From the NCBI RefSeq assembly GCF_003859805.1, contig NZ_RQZG01000001.1, positions 434,001-498,000 on the forward strand: a stretch of DNA of 64,000 bases. The letters are read 5' to 3'. Every line of letters begins with the position of its first letter. Position 1 is the stretch's first letter. Made by a program: the position numbers and the translations under genes. The stretch is from Arachnia propionica (GTDB lineage: Bacteria > Actinomycetota > Actinomycetes > Propionibacteriales > Propionibacteriaceae). Under the pieces are notes generated by a model. That model saw only the letters and a program-made list of their open reading frames with translations. It was not told the DNA's origin and did not search any database. This document shows, one piece after another, positions 52,347-64,000 of this stretch.

Positions 52347-53648
52347 TCAGCGCAAAGCCGCCTGCGCCGCCTTCGGCAGGGCCCTGGCGATGACCTCCAT
52401 GGCCTCGTCGTCGTGGGCCGCGCTGAGGAACCAGGCCTCGAAGGCCGACGGTGGCAGGGCCACCCCCTCCTCCAGCATCGCGTGGAAGAAGCGCGTGAAG
52501 GCGTCGGTGTCCTGGGCCTGCGCGTCTGCGTAGTTGCGGACCGGTTCCTCGCGGAAGAACACCGAGAAGAGGTTCCCCGCGTGCTGCACCACGTGCGGCA
52601 CCCCTGCCTTCGTCAGGGCCTCGTGGACCATCGCCTGCAGCTCCTTGGACCGGGCATCGACGTGGGCGTAGGTTCCCTCGTCGGCCAGGTCCAGCGTCGC
52701 GATCCCTGCCGCCGTCGCGAGCGGGTTCCCCGACAGGGTGCCCGCCTGGTACACCGGGCCGAGCGGGGCCAGCAGGTCCATCACCTCGGCCCGTCCGGCC
52801 ACCGCCGCCAACGGCATCCCGCCACCGACGACCTTCCCGAAGGTGAACAGATCCGGTACCCAGGCCGGGTTCTCCACCCCGGTCTCGAAACCCCACCAGC
52901 CAGCTCGTGACACCCGGAACCCGGTCAGCACCTCGTCCAGGACCATGAGGGCTCCGTGCTCGGCCGTCAGCCGACGGATCTCCTGGTTGAAGCCCTCCAT
53001 CGGGGGCACCACCCCCATGTTGGCCGGGGCAGCCTCCGTGATGACGCAGGCGATCCGGTCACCGAAGCTGGCGAACGCCTCCCGCAGCGCCGGCACGTCG
53101 TTGTACGGCAGCACGACGGTGTCCGCCGCAGCCGCCGCCGTCACCCCCGCGCTGCCCGGCAGCCCCTGCGTCGCCACCCCAGAACCGGCCGCCGCGAGCA
53201 GCGCATCGGAATGGCCGTGGTAGAGCCCCGCGAACTTGATGATCCGGTCCCGTCCGGTCGCTCCGCGCGCGATGCGCAGCGCCGTCATCGTCGCCTCCGT
53301 GCCGGTGCTGACCAGCCGCACGTGCTCGGCGGCGGGCACCCGCTGCCGGATGCGCTCGACCAGTTCCACCTCGGCCCCCGTCGGAGCCCCGAAGCTCAGC
53401 CCCCTCGCCGCGGCCCGCTGCACCGCCGCCACCACATCGGGATGCGCGTGCCCCAGCAGTGCAGGCCCCCAGGAACACACCAGGTCGACGTAGCTGTTGC
53501 CCTCCACATCCGTGACCCGACACCCGGAGGCCTCCGTGATGAACCGGGGACTCCCGCCCACCGACGAGAACGCCCGCACCGGCGAGTTCACCCCGCCCGG
53601 GATCGACTCCACCGCCCGCTTCATCCACGCCTGGTTCAGTCCAGCCAT
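52347..53648 (-). CDS. hemL: Glutamate-1-semialdehyde 2,1-aminomutase
   Basis: This PLP enzyme (433 residues) converts glutamate-1-semialdehyde to 5-aminolevulinate. The N-terminal motif [13 protein letters not shown], the PLP-phosphate region [23 protein letters not shown] and the Schiff-base lysine in [13 protein letters not shown] are all present. It is the last gene of the minus-strand heme operon and overlaps hemB by 13 bp. With hemA across the divergent promoter it supplies the C5 route to ALA. Confidence 0.97.
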
Positions 53649-54598
53649 TGCGCCACCTCCAACGCCCAGTAGGTCAGCACCACATCGGCACCGGCCCGAA
53701 CGATACCCGTCACCGACTCCTCGATGGCGGCTCGGCGGTTGATCCAGCCCTTCTCGGCCGCCGCCTCGATCATCGAGTACTCCCCCGACACCTGGTAGGC
53801 CGCCACCGGCACCTGGGCCACCGCCGCGACATCGGCCAGCACGTCCAGGTAGTGGCTGGCGGGCTTGACCATCACCATGTCCGCCCCCTCGGCCAGGTCG
53901 AGCAGCGCCTCACGCAGCCCCTCCCGACGATTCGCAGGATCCTGCTGATAGGTCCGCCGATCCCCCTCCAGCGACGACCCCACCGCCTCCCGGAACGGGC
54001 CGTAGAAGGCGGAGGCGTACTTGGCGGAATAGGCCAGGATGCCGACCTCGGCGAACCCTGCCGCATCCAGCCCCTCCCGGATGATGCGCACCTGGCCGTC
54101 CATCATCCCCGACGGGGCGACGACGTGTGCCCCGGCCCTGGCCTGGGAGATCGCCTGCTGGGCGTACAGCTCACAGGTCTCGTCCCCCAGCACCCGGCCG
54201 TCCTCGGCCAGCACCCCGCAGTGCCCATGCGTGGTGAACTCGTCGAGACACACATCCGACATGATCACCAGCTCATCGCCCACGGCCTGACGGCAGGCCG
54301 CGATGCCACGTTGCAGGATCCCGTCGGCCGCCCAGGCCTGCGAGCCTCGCGGGTCCTTGTCCGCCTCGTCGGGAACGCCGAACAGCATGAGCCCACCCAC
54401 CCCGGCGTCGCGGGCCGCTCGGGCCACATCCCCGATCTGTTCGACGGTGTGCCGCCTGACCCCGGGCATCGCCGAGATCTCCGCGGCACTCTCCCCGACG
54501 AAGGCGGGCAGCACCAACTGGTCGGGACGGGGTCGGGTCTCGCGGACCAACCGCCTCATGGCGGCCGTGGTGCGCAGACGACGTGGACGCTCGATCAT
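53636..54598 (-). CDS. hemB: Delta-aminolevulinic acid dehydratase (porphobilinogen synthase)
   Basis: The 320-residue TIM-barrel enzyme condenses two ALA molecules. Active lysines lie in YSAKYAS and [10 protein letters not shown]. The metal site reads [12 protein letters not shown], so the middle cysteine of the zinc-type C-x-C-x7-C motif is Asp; to my recollection this hybrid site is common in actinobacterial HemB. The start overlaps the hemCD stop as ATGA. Confidence 0.97.
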
Positions 54599-59749: not shown

Positions 59750-60822
59750 CTGATGCCCTGAGCCCCTACACCGCGGTCCTCATCGCCTCCTACGGGGGCC
59801 CTCGCCAGCCGGAGGACGTGCTGCCGTTCATGCGCAACGCCACCGCTGGTCGTGGGGTACCCGATGAGCGCCTCGTCGAGGTCTCGCAGCACTACGCCCT
59901 GTTCGGAGGACGGTCTCCCATCAACGAACAGAACGAGGCACTTCGCGACGCGCTGGCCGACGAACTGGAACGACGCGGCTGCCCCCGCGAGGTGGTCATC
60001 GGCAACCGCAACTGGACACCGTACTTCGCGGAAACGGTCGGTGCCCTCCGCGACGACGGACACCAGCAGGTCGTGGCCCTGGCCACCGCCGCCTACTCCT
60101 GCTACTCGGCGTGCCGTCAGTACCGCGAGGACCTGGACCGGGCCATGACCGAGATCCCCGGGATCCAGCTGGAGAAGGTGGGTTCCTACTGGGCGAGCGA
60201 AGGGTTCCTCACCGCCAACACCGACTCCCTCGTGGCGGCCGTGAGAGCGCTGCGTAGCCGGATCGGTCAGGGTGCCCTGCGGGTGCTCTTCGTCACCCAC
60301 TCCATCCCCACCGTGATGAACGAGCTGTCCTTCGACGGCTCCCCGGAGAAACGCTACGAGGCCCAGCACCTGAGTGTCGCCGCTGACGTGGCGCGCCGTG
60401 CAGGTGTGGAGCTCGGCGAGGACCTGGAGTGGGAGTTGACCTTCTGCTCCCGCTCCGGTTCCCCCCACATCCCCTGGTTGGAGCCGGACATCTCCGATCG
60501 TCTGGGGGAGATCTCCGACGTCGACGGTGTGGTGGCCGCCCCGATCGGTTTCATCTCGGACCACATGGAGGTGGCCTTCGACCTCGACACCGAGGCCAGG
60601 GCTGCCGCCGAGGAGGCCGGGATCGCCTACGAGCGGGCCGCCACCGTCGGCACGCACCCGTCATTCGTCACCGCCCTGGCCGATCTCCTGCTGGAACAGG
60701 CCGCCGTCGCCCGCGGCGACCTCCCCCGGCCGGCACACCCGTGTCTCGCACCTGAGACCTCCTGCTGTCAGATCCGAACCCGGAAGGACCCCCATGTCAC
60801 ACCCTCACCACATGCCCGTTGA
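59746..60822 (+). CDS. hemH: Coproporphyrin ferrochelatase (HemH/CpfC)
   Basis: This enzyme inserts Fe2+ into coproporphyrin III. The 358-residue chelatase has the catalytic His in FVTHSIPT and the acidic residue in the SDHMEVAFDLD segment. The C-terminus carries CLAPETSCC, matching the spacing (C-x6-C plus a neighbour) of the 2Fe-2S ligands in actinobacterial ferrochelatases, so an iron-sulfur cluster is likely. The last 29 bp overlap hemQ, adding a tail (TRKDPHVTPSPHAR) beyond the cluster. Confidence 0.95.
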   Translation: MTDALSPYTAVLIASYGGPRQPEDVLPFMRNATAGRGVPDERLVEVSQHYALFGGRSPINEQNEALRDALADELERRGCPREVVIGNRNWTPYFAETVGALRDDGHQQVVALATAAYSCYSACRQYREDLDRAMTEIPGIQLEKVGSYWASEGFLTANTDSLVAAVRALRSRIGQGALRVLFVTHSIPTVMNELSFDGSPEKRYEAQHLSVAADVARRAGVELGEDLEWELTFCSRSGSPHIPWLEPDISDRLGEISDVDGVVAAPIGFISDHMEVAFDLDTEARAAAEEAGIAYERAATVGTHPSFVTALADLLLEQAAVARGDLPRPAHPCLAPETSCCQIRTRKDPHVTPSPHAR

Positions 60823-61507
60823 TCCCCGCGACACCCCCATCCCCGCGGAGGAGGTCAACGCCTCCACCCACTACGTCATGTACTCGGTGTTCCAGACCAT
60901 CGCCCCGGTCGACCCCGCCGACGTCGAGGCCGCCGAGCAGGCCTTGGCCGACACCGGGGCGACGGTGCGCGGGTTCTACGACATCGGTGGGTTCCGGGCC
61001 GATGCCGACCTGATGGTGTGGACCATCGACGACGACCCGGCGGTCCTCCAGGCCGCCTACCACGCCCTGCGGAACTCGGCCCTCGGTGGCTGTCTGGAGC
61101 CGGTGTGGTCCTGCATCGGGGTGCATCGCCCGGCCGAGTTCAACCGCGGGCACACCCCGGCCTGCTTCTCAGGTGTCGCGCCACGCCCGTGGCTGTGCGT
61201 GTACCCGTTCGTGCGCAGCTACGACTGGTACTACCTCGATGACGACCACCGCTCCAAGATGCTCTCGGAGCACGGGAAGATGGGCCGCGAGTACCCCGAT
61301 GTGCTGGGCTCGACCACCTCGGCCTTCGCCCTGAACGACTACGAGTGGCTGCTGGCCTTCGAGGCCGACGAGCTGCACCGCCTCACCGATGCGATGCGCT
61401 ACCAGCGCGGAGCGGAGGCCAGGCTGCACGTCCGCGAGGAGATCCCCTTCTTCACGGGGCCCAGGGTCAGCCTGGCCGAGTGGGCAGCCCGTCAGCCGGC
61501 TGCCTGA
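60794..61507 (+). CDS. hemQ: Coproheme decarboxylase (HemQ/ChdC)
   Basis: This 237-residue chlorite-dismutase-fold enzyme turns coproheme into heme b using peroxide. The catalytic tyrosine region YPFVRSYDWYYLDD and the proximal His in MLSEHGKMGREYPDV are present. Together with hemY and hemH it marks the coproporphyrin-dependent heme pathway of actinobacteria and firmicutes. ATG 60794 with GGAAGGA upstream lies inside the end of hemH. The 3' end overlaps the convergent HemCD-like gene by 16 bp. Confidence 0.96.
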   Translation: MSHPHHMPVDPRDTPIPAEEVNASTHYVMYSVFQTIAPVDPADVEAAEQALADTGATVRGFYDIGGFRADADLMVWTIDDDPAVLQAAYHALRNSALGGCLEPVWSCIGVHRPAEFNRGHTPACFSGVAPRPWLCVYPFVRSYDWYYLDDDHRSKMLSEHGKMGREYPDVLGSTTSAFALNDYEWLLAFEADELHRLTDAMRYQRGAEARLHVREEIPFFTGPRVSLAEWAARQPAA

Positions 61508-63114
61508 TCCCCCTCGATGACCTGCTTGAGCAGGGTGTGCACCCTCTCGGGCGAGTAGTCGTCCGAGTATCCGGCGATCGGGACTCCCGCACGCTCCAAC
61601 ACCAGGCGTGCGGAGTCACCGACGGCGAAGACCAGCACGTCCGGGTTCCACCCGAGCAGGCGTCCCGTCGCGATGGCGTTGGACCCGGAGGTGATGATCA
61701 CCGCGTCGAATCCACCCTGGTTCCACTGGTCGAGGATGTCCTGGGGTGCCTCGTCGTTGATCTGCATCGTGTAGATGGGGATCAGCTGGGTGTTCCAGCC
61801 CTTGGCCTGCAGCGCTGAGATGAAGCTGGGGGCGAGCAGCGCCGACCCGGGGACCAGCACCGTGCCCTCGCCGTCGGGCCAGATCTCGACGAGCGCCCTC
61901 ACCCCGGAGCTGCCCTCCGGCACCAGGTCCACCTCGTACCCCATGGCACGCAGCGCATCGGCGGTGCCCCTGCCCACGGCTGCGATCCTGACCCCCTTCG
62001 GCAGGGTCCAGCCGAGGTCCCGGATGCTCTCGACGGCGCGCACGGAGGTGAAGGCCAACCAGTCGGCCCCGTCCAGCGTCGAGGAGACCGCCAGCACCTG
62101 GCGGTGTTGCAGCGCGACGGCGGTGACGTGCAGCCCGAACTCCCGAAGCCCCCGCGCCATGCGGCCCTCCTCACGGGGGACCAGGATCCCGGCCCGCGAC
62201 AGGTCGGTGAGACGCTGGCCGGGTTGGTCGTCGTTCTCCTCCTGGACGGGGCGCGGAGGCCGCCCCAACTCCTCCGCACCCTTGAAGCGCAGGTAGGCGG
62301 CGGCCTTGCGGGCCGTGCGGATGGCGTGCAGCTCGGAGGTGGGCATGCCCATCTGCACGGTGAGTCCCTTCGACCCGTCGCCGGGGATCACCTCCACCAG
62401 CAGTGAGAGCACGCCTGCCCGATGGGCACGGGCGGCGACGGAGACCGAGTCAGCCACATTGAGAGCGGCGACGGCGGCGCGCTCCGCCATGACACACACC
62501 CGGGTGTCGGCGTGGTCGAGCACGGACAGGGCCTCCACCAGCTGGTGGTCCTCGCTGCGGCACTCCAGGCCGATGGCCCCGAGACCGGCCGCGGGCAGGA
62601 TGGGCAGGTACTCGGTCACCTCGTCGAGACGACCGACGGCCTCGAAGTCGGCGGCCCCCGCCACGACCGCGTCGATCTCGCCGTCCCTCACCTTGTCGAG
62701 GAACTCGAGGAGCTGGCCGGTGGTGCGCTCCACGAAACGCAGCCCCGGGTTGAGGGCCAGCAGTTGTGTCCGGCGCAGGTTGGAACGAGTCGCCACCACG
62801 GCCCCCTCGGGCAGGTTCGCCAGCGTGGTGCCGTCGCGGGTCACCAGGGCATCCCGGCGGTCACTGCGCCTGAGGACGGCGGCGAAGGTCAGTCCGGGCA
62901 TCGGTTGCTGCGGGATGCGGTGCATCCGGTGCACGACCAGATCGAAGTCGCCACGCATCAGACCGAGCCGCAGCGCACCGATGGTCTCGGCGTCGCCCGC
63001 AGCGGGGATCCGGATGATGTCCACATCGTGTCCGAGTCCCCGCAGCTGTTCGGCGACGACCTCGCTGCGAGCCACGTCGACAATCGAGTTCTTGGTTCCA
63101 AGTCTGATCTTCAC
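61492..63114 (-). CDS. HemC-HemD fusion paralogue with degenerate HemC domain
   Basis: The 540-residue chain aligns end to end with the HemCD at 54595-56202. In its HemC half (1 to about 285) the catalytic HSLKD becomes HRMHR (residues 62-66, the Asp replaced by Arg66). The GTRAS start becomes GTKNS and the SPRRVAQL substrate site becomes RSNLRRTQL. The cofactor-cysteine loop GGGCAAP becomes NVADSVS with Asp222 in the Cys position. It cannot bind the dipyrromethane cofactor, so it is not a bilane synthase. The HemD half (about 305-535) keeps the two-lobed pattern (FTSVRAVESIRDLG; VGRGTADAL; ITSGSNA). It may be an active cyclase with a scaffold domain, or a regulator. Confidence 0.85.
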   Translation of the reverse strand: MKIRLGTKNSIVDVARSEVVAEQLRGLGHDVDIIRIPAAGDAETIGALRLGLMRGDFDLVVHRMHRIPQQPMPGLTFAAVLRRSDRRDALVTRDGTTLANLPEGAVVATRSNLRRTQLLALNPGLRFVERTTGQLLEFLDKVRDGEIDAVVAGAADFEAVGRLDEVTEYLPILPAAGLGAIGLECRSEDHQLVEALSVLDHADTRVCVMAERAAVAALNVADSVSVAARAHRAGVLSLLVEVIPGDGSKGLTVQMGMPTSELHAIRTARKAAAYLRFKGAEELGRPPRPVQEENDDQPGQRLTDLSRAGILVPREEGRMARGLREFGLHVTAVALQHRQVLAVSSTLDGADWLAFTSVRAVESIRDLGWTLPKGVRIAAVGRGTADALRAMGYEVDLVPEGSSGVRALVEIWPDGEGTVLVPGSALLAPSFISALQAKGWNTQLIPIYTMQINDEAPQDILDQWNQGGFDAVIITSGSNAIATGRLLGWNPDVLVFAVGDSARLVLERAGVPIAGYSDDYSPERVHTLLKQVIEGDQAAG

Positions 63115-63175: not shown

Positions 63176-64000
63176 TCAGTCGAGCACCCAGCTCGGCAGG
63201 CCGATCATGTAGGAGCTGGCATCACCACCGTCGTGGTTGGCGGCGACCATGATGCGACTGAGGTCCTTCGAGGCCGTGGCCTGGGGTTCCAGGAAGTAGT
63301 GCTTGTTCTCGCCCGGGGTTGTCGGCCAGGTGCTGTGGATGTGGGCCACGTTGAGGGCGCGTCCCCCCGGCTTCAGCTCCAGCAGCCACACCTTGCGGTA
63401 CTCGGGTTGCACGGTCGTGGCACGCACCAGTGTGCCGTTCTCCACACGGTGCTCACCGTAGGTGGAGACCACGGCCCATCCAGGGCGATCGAAGCACTGG
63501 GCGCTGATGTGGCAGGCGTACGACTCACTGTCGGGGAGGTACAGCCTGTGCAGCTCGCTGCGTTCTCCCGTCTCGAGATCGACGGCGATGATGGCAGCGC
63601 CGTCGTCGTTGCGGTAGGCGGCAGCGACGTAGAGGTCGTGCCCGTTGGCCCCGATGGCCAGGTCCGAGTGCTCCGAGGTGCCGATCAGTTTCCGGGAGGA
63701 GGAGAAGTCAACCGGATAGGCGAAGGTCCCGCCGTCCTCGATCTGTTCCATCCACACCCAGGACACGACGGCGAAGCGTCCGCTGGGGCTCGTGCTGACA
63801 TGGTCGGGAACCGCTCCGGGGAAGGGGAACCTCGAGGCGTCGAGGGTACCGAGGATGGTTCCTGTGCTGAGGTCCACGGTGACGATGCCGTGGCACACCT
63901 TCTGCTTGGTGGTCTCGTCGTAGGCGTTGGCCATGAGGGTCAGGATGCGGCCGTCAGCGCTGCGGGTGCCCTCCCCTCCTGTCCAGAAGGAAGTGGCCTG
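63176..64000 (-). CDS. Beta-propeller-like protein (partial, 5' end outside window)
   Basis: At least 274 codons are open to the edge of the window. The sequence shows repeated strand-turn blocks (GIVTVDLSTGTILGTLDASRF; AIIAVDLETGERSELHRL; GRFAVVSWVWME) typical of WD/YVTN-like propellers, and ends MIGLPSWVLD. ATG 63934 is internal, because in-frame coding (SFWTGGEGTRSADGRIL) continues upstream. No function is assignable; extracellular location is possible but the N-terminus is not visible. Confidence 0.7.
   Translation of the reverse strand, partial: QATSFWTGGEGTRSADGRILTLMANAYDETTKQKVCHGIVTVDLSTGTILGTLDASRFPFPGAVPDHVSTSPSGRFAVVSWVWMEQIEDGGTFAYPVDFSSSRKLIGTSEHSDLAIGANGHDLYVAAAYRNDDGAAIIAVDLETGERSELHRLYLPDSESYACHISAQCFDRPGWAVVSTYGEHRVENGTLVRATTVQPEYRKVWLLELKPGGRALNVAHIHSTWPTTPGENKHYFLEPQATASKDLSRIMVAANHDGGDASSYMIGLPSWVLD

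Follow-up and report, generated by a model that had tools for sequence, protein, structure and literature searches.

A second HemC-HemD fusion in Arachnia propionica whose HemC half is a putative pseudoenzyme under purifying selection

HemC and HemD make the macrocycle ancestral to haem, sirohaem, cobalamin and chlorophyll. For hydroxymethylbilane synthase (HMBS; HemC, PF01379/TIGR00212), the roles of Asp84 and Cys242 are described in an excerpt of PMC8561815, the binding residues, Gln19 included, are given in a section of PMC3945110, and human counterparts of HMBS residues appear in an extract of PMC7907807. For uroporphyrinogen-III synthase (HemD, PF02602), our literature search on residues returned nothing; a passage of PMC7242693 mentions a tyrosine that may belong to the active site. 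The open-access PMC literature, to which the search was confined, yielded no description of a HemC pseudoenzyme or of a Cys-less HemC. One paper holds both terms, and the pseudoenzyme named in its excerpt is TrpC-TrpF (PMC11528492). Pseudoenzymes as a group are the subject of a review (PMC10211241).

We analyzed a stretch of 64,000 nucleotides from Arachnia propionica (the window), in which a first-pass annotation had picked out a second HemC-HemD fusion (HemCD2) with a dead HemC half. The genes concerned are listed here.

61492..63114, minus strand: HemCD2, A form, the second HemC-HemD fusion; open reading frame of 540 aa
54595..56202, minus strand: canonical HemCD, HSLKD and GGGC kept; 5.3 kb from HemCD2
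53636..54598, minus strand: hemB; open reading frame
52347..53648, minus strand: hemL
60794..61507, plus strand: hemQ, convergent with HemCD2; start set at an ATG within the open reading frame

HemCD2 starts with GTG, preceded by GGAGG 4 bases upstream, and its 3' end overlaps that of hemQ by 16 bases.

HemCD2 resembles the canonical HemCD of the genus in domain order, length, gene neighbourhood and common ancestry. A pseudo-HemC domain (residues 1 to ~288) is followed by a low-confidence linker (~289-305) and a HemD domain (~307-536), and the predicted fold is intact. The two proteins can be aligned from end to end, as the first-pass annotation had held when it described HemCD2 as parallel, over its whole length, to a HemCD 5 kb away. 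Each half has the fold of its family and exceeds the Pfam cut-off, with 107.9 bits for Porphobil_deam (PF01379; residues 3-193) and 105.2 bits for HEM4 (PF02602; 319-523); the canonical protein scores 245.2 and 134.3 bits, respectively. By the NCBIfam hemC equivalog TIGR00212 (cut-off 164 bits), canonical HemCD passes with 286.4 bits and HemCD2 fails with 125.8. None of the NCBIfam HemD cut-offs listed was reached by the HemD half of either protein. The whole genome contains two matches to the HemC profile.

HemCD2 differs from HMBS in lacking the cofactor Cys and the catalytic Asp, in its short lid, and in the replacement of most substrate arginines. Two elements of the former active site stand out.

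62917..62931, minus strand: HRMHR replacing HSLKD (residues 62-66); Ser81 is Arg63, Lys83 is His65 and Asp84 is Arg66
62449..62451, minus strand: Asp222 codon, where the dipyrromethane-binding Cys242 is expected

E. coli residue numbers were set by sequence order, with Asp84 and Cys242 checked against PDB chain 4mlq (B. megaterium HMBS), whose alignment with HemCD2 places Arg66 on the catalytic Asp and Asp222 on the Cys. Both changes, reported earlier from the window, are thus confirmed. So is the claim that substrate arginine motifs have changed: Arg131, Arg149, Arg155 and Arg176 are replaced, and Gln198 is also missing. In contrast, all 35 full-length canonical rows keep every E. coli residue compared, most of which the window HemCD2 does not.

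To place this copy, we examined 39 genomes, drawn from two genome searches, of what we take to be its genus (GTDB Arachnia with Tessaracoccus). The genus label was not listed for three no-match genomes of one search, and sequence was fetched for part of the non-genus matches. A readable second HemCD was present in 36/39 genomes, a canonical copy in 36/39, and both in 35; all 34 genomes that are at least 90% complete have both. No second copy could be read in three genomes: G014 (60% complete, no match), G006 (canonical copy only, 3.3-kb contig) and G008. In G008 both copies are split over several frames, as expected of its poor assembly; HSVKD (Y-form-like) and HSLKD motifs are still readable there (L116, L117). 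G035 has the second HemCD alone, with no canonical copy found. The second copies fall into two forms, 14 of the window's A form, in which Arg replaces Asp84 and Asp or Glu the Cys, and 22 of a Y form, in which Tyr replaces the Cys; no genome of the genus among those examined was seen to carry both. An intact second copy in nearly all of the related genomes examined suggests that it has another job in haem precursor synthesis.

Active-site residues were compared across 14 A, 22 Y, 35 canonical and 33 outgroup rows. The canonical rows omit G019 (cut at a contig edge, Cys present), and the outgroup rows omit G121, itself Cys-less. The cofactor Cys is kept in 0/36 second copies, 36/36 canonical copies and 33/34 fetched outgroup rows, G121 being the exception; its place is taken by Asp (6) or Glu (8) in A and by Tyr in 22/22 Y. 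Gln19 is likewise replaced in both forms, by Arg (13) or His (1) in A and by Arg in 22/22 Y, and is Gln in 35/35 canonical and 32/33 outgroup rows. Asp84 is Arg in 14/14 A, Lys83 is His (8) or Asn (6), Arg11 is Lys in 14/14 and Arg131 is Leu (13) or Val (1); the original residue at these four positions is found in 22/22 Y and 35/35 canonical rows, and in 33/33, 32/33, 33/33 and 32/33 outgroup rows, respectively. Arg155 and Gln198 remain in 0/14 and 3/14 A rows and in 22/22 Y rows, Arg149 in 1/14 A and 1/22 Y, and Arg176 in 0/14 A and 6/22 Y; all four are kept in every canonical (35/35) and outgroup (33/33) row. Arg132 and Arg232 (E. coli numbering) are present in all rows. The lid segment is shortened by 12 residues in 14/14 A rows. 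Judged by these counts, Y retains much of the cleft minus the cofactor anchor, whereas the cleft of A has been rebuilt.

These counts bear on the earlier proposal that the old cleft binds a tetrapyrrole intermediate. Hydroxymethylbilane might be held there and passed to the fused HemD, avoiding spontaneous formation of uroporphyrinogen I. Two titles cited in PMC7907807 indicate that apo-HMBS and preuroporphyrinogen give the holoenzyme by cofactor assembly. A Cys-less HemC cannot use hydroxymethylbilane covalently in this way, so binding would be reversible. The Y form keeps R11, K83, D84, R131, R132, R155 and Q198 in 22/22 rows, all of which contact the pyrrole chain in a simulation described in the excerpt of PMC3945110, and could hold the bilane in its vacant cleft. 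Yet Y also lacks R149 (21/22) and R176 (16/22), and A lacks K83, D84, R131, R155 and R176 (14/14), R149 (13) and Q198 (11). The proposal is therefore plausible for Y and less likely for A, in which most pyrrole-binding residues are replaced; as an account of HemCD2 in general we consider it improbable.

The loss of catalytic residues could also mark a functionless duplicate in decay. We estimated dN/dS by the Nei-Gojobori method, with some dS values above 1 and saturated. Ratios were 0.069-0.182 for the A form (9 pairs) and 0.064-0.168 for the Y form (5 pairs); canonical HemCD gave 0.142-0.209 in the same 9 A genome pairs, exceeding A in 8/9, and 0.129-0.285 in Y genomes (4 pairs). The HemC half of the A form alone gave 0.050-0.247. 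The ratios are far from 1, the value near which the first-pass annotation would have seen a decaying duplicate. A search for frameshifts, proposed in the first-pass annotation as a means of refutation, found none in the 36 second copies read, all with intact frames; the only broken genes were both copies of the poorly assembled G008. HemCD2 is under purifying selection, as had been claimed. In view of intact frames in 36 copies and low dN/dS we reject a pseudogene or an assembly artefact. With ratios of 0.06-0.18 in the 14 pairs of A or Y copies, and with new residues that are invariant (see below), functionless decay is scarcely credible. Catalytic residues are lost while frame and predicted fold are kept under selection, and on these grounds the HemC half can be called a pseudoenzyme; pseudoenzymes in general likewise combine a lost catalytic motif, an intact fold and purifying selection.

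Conservation is distributed differently in the two forms. We scored columns conserved in at least 93% of canonical and outgroup rows, counting a column as kept when retained in at least 13/14 A or 20/22 Y rows. The A form keeps 27/75 conserved HemC columns and 19/22 HemD columns, and the Y form keeps 41/75 and 12/22; Gly499 of the HemD half is Asp in 22/22 Y rows. Together with the residue losses and dN/dS, these column counts support the view that a dead HemC half has been retained under selection. Because A and Y have departed more in opposite halves, a simple 'spare HemD' is hard to sustain for both, and, given 12/22 columns in Y, what they have in common may be something other than HemD activity.

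One residue of the HemD half is of particular note.

61771..61773, minus strand: codon of Tyr448, a tyrosine of the HemD half found in all 61 aligned rows

We take Tyr448 to be the conserved HemD tyrosine, Tyr168 of the human enzyme. The A-form HemD half is probably competent; unlike uroporphyrinogen-III synthase, it is fused to a dead HemC. The first-pass annotation had raised the possibility of a synthase reserved for the cobalamin or siroheme branch, and the genome does contain eight tetrapyrrole-methylase matches alongside three HemD matches. The third HemD (at C46) forms the C-terminal half of a 532-aa open reading frame whose N-terminal TP_methylase domain scores 56.5 bits (cut-off 27.8), a CobA-HemD-like fusion. 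Its methylase half gives a weak match that falls short of the NCBIfam CobA cut-offs; this and the apparent competence of the A-form HemD half speak for a dedicated enzyme. But a methylase-HemD fusion is thus already present, and haem genes accompany HemCD2 in 27/36 genomes. For these two reasons a cobalamin or siroheme role is less likely, and we regard it as very improbable.

Trees, shared residues and gene order all point to one duplication behind A and Y. A tree of the HemC part, rooted on the outgroup, grouped A and Y in one clade with 99/96 support, a value that long branches could inflate and for which the bootstrap was not fully settled. AU tests on 63 full-length or HemC rows, hand-thinned and with groups named after the first tree showed them, rejected trees in which A (p-AU 0.0006) or Y (p-AU 0.00007) was held with the canonical copies. 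Canonical rows needed two changes in the 63-row analysis, so either the duplication or the earliest speciation may have come first. Further support, which does not rest on the tree, comes from eight residues common to A and Y, six of them in one segment.

62317..62349, minus strand: GMPTSELHAIR (residues 256-266); G256, P258, T259, S260, H263 and R266 in 36/36 second copies

R232 (HemCD2 numbering) is also present in 36/36 second copies, A and Y, and R16 in 35/36. Neither among canonical nor among outgroup rows is any of the eight (R16, R232, G256, P258, T259, S260, H263 and R266) the most frequent state; 6 outgroup rows do have P258, and the S260 and H263 positions are gapped in most canonical rows.

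Gene order is consistent with this picture. In 19/36 genomes (16/22 Y, 3/14 A) the second HemCD comes immediately 3' of hemL, across gaps of 73-127 bp (counted up to where the tblastn match ends), and in 8/14 A genomes, the window's among them, it is on the 3' side of hemQ. HemCD2 is in or beside the hem cluster in 27/36 genomes and away from the fetched hem cluster in 9/36, including one genome where it sits at the edge of a contig. Two independent duplications for A and Y are rejected in view of the rooted trees, the AU tests and the common place 3' of hemL. Separately, a gene on the same strand lies directly upstream of HemCD2, from window position 63176 to 64000 and beyond. Its relatives are at most one gene from HemCD2 in 7/8 hemQ-side A genomes, and the L103 relative matched no Pfam or NCBIfam model. 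In G016 (L049:5865-7028), a second HemY-like open reading frame of the protoporphyrinogen oxidase family (126.5 bits, below the cut-off of 517) precedes a displaced Y-form gene.

The R16/R232/PTSxxHAxR patch is the best candidate for a function common to A and Y. It may be that HemCD2 is a non-enzymatic regulator, in which the remodelled HemC fold senses an intermediate or a partner and adjusts canonical HemCD or an enzyme further up the pathway, for example HemA or HemL, with the HemD half structural. The new residues (R16 in 35/36, R232 and PTSxxHAxR in 36/36) and the position in the hem cluster would fit such a role, as would the departure of the Y form from canonical residues in both halves. 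Against it, the A HemD half is nearer to canonical (19/22) than one would expect if its role were purely structural, and we hold this to be a serious but on balance unlikely account. The broader suggestion of the first-pass annotation, that the domain scaffolds HemD or regulates HemD or the haem island, is compatible with the hem-cluster position and the invariant new residues, and is favoured on those grounds.

The explanation that we prefer, at just short of an even chance, combines a HemC pseudoenzyme with an A-form HemD half that still closes the ring, working beside canonical HemCD at the step from hydroxymethylbilane to uroporphyrinogen-III. hemCD would have been duplicated once in the ancestry of the genus, the copy being placed 3' of hemL. 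Early loss of the cofactor Cys and Gln19 would have followed, and the third HemC domain would have gained its new set of invariant residues. Lacking the Cys (and, in A, Asp84 as well), HemCD2 presumably cannot hold the dipyrromethane primer, in which case, by established HMBS chemistry, hydroxymethylbilane would not be made. In A, ring closure would fall to the HemD half, and the dead HemC half may dock HemCD or keep the enzyme in a complex. Several observations count against this explanation. The Y HemD half keeps only 12/22 conserved columns, 9/36 genes lie outside the fetched hem cluster, and HemD is already supplied by canonical HemCD and the methylase-HemD fusion, making another redundant.

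Other Actinobacteria seem to have lost the Cys of HemC independently. In genus g13 (Propionibacteriaceae), six HemCD-like open reading frames have HMLKD, Arg131 to Leu and Cys to Thr (G065, G089, G106, G121, G134 and G154; loci L099, L144, L145, L146, L148 and L149). These keep Gln19 and lack PTSxxHAxR, and so look separate from HemCD2; the only one included in a tree, that of G121, was on a long branch. A second HemD-like open reading frame occurs on the same fetched stretch in L099, L146 and L148, and G089, G134 and G154 were seen to have a HemC of canonical type as well. We also inspected 25 HemC loci in a further 11 genomes of Actinobacteria, hand-picked among those with at least two HemC matches. 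Twenty keep the Cys, two have Tyr together with Asp84 to Glu (G363, G372), two are pieces of one frame-broken gene (Cys readable) and one is unrelated. A search with the G372 protein found one more Cys-less sequence, in G398 (Gly, Asp84 kept), and 16 loci of a second-HemC type with a GHCNSP motif. The Cys-less sequences of G372, G363 and G398 (L172, L173 and L183) are stand-alone HemC paralogues of family f18, related to a second HemC with the GHCNSP loop that is seen in many genomes. An outgroup HemCD in genus g18 (G163, L079:6106-7869), the single match in its genome, keeps the Cys but has Thr for Lys83 (HSFTD) and Leu for Arg131 (SPLR).

Cys-less HemC may represent a recurring, unrecognised actinobacterial class of bilane-handling or regulatory pseudoenzymes that control both flux and isomer fidelity where the tetrapyrrole ring is first closed, a speculative reading that we think rather unlikely to hold in full. 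Its members would be the Arachnia/Tessaracoccus HemCD2, the Cys-to-Thr HemCD of another Propionibacteriaceae genus, and the stand-alone Cys-to-Tyr or Cys-to-Gly HemC of a third lineage, each holding hydroxymethylbilane or a partner enzyme. Automatic annotation would probably label HemCD2 an ordinary HemC or HemD, which could mislead metabolic reconstructions. It is still fair to ask how ring closure of hydroxymethylbilane to the wrong isomer is avoided, and a natural, selected Cys-less HemC fused to HemD, mostly at the haem cluster, would give experiments a direct handle on hand-over or control at this step.
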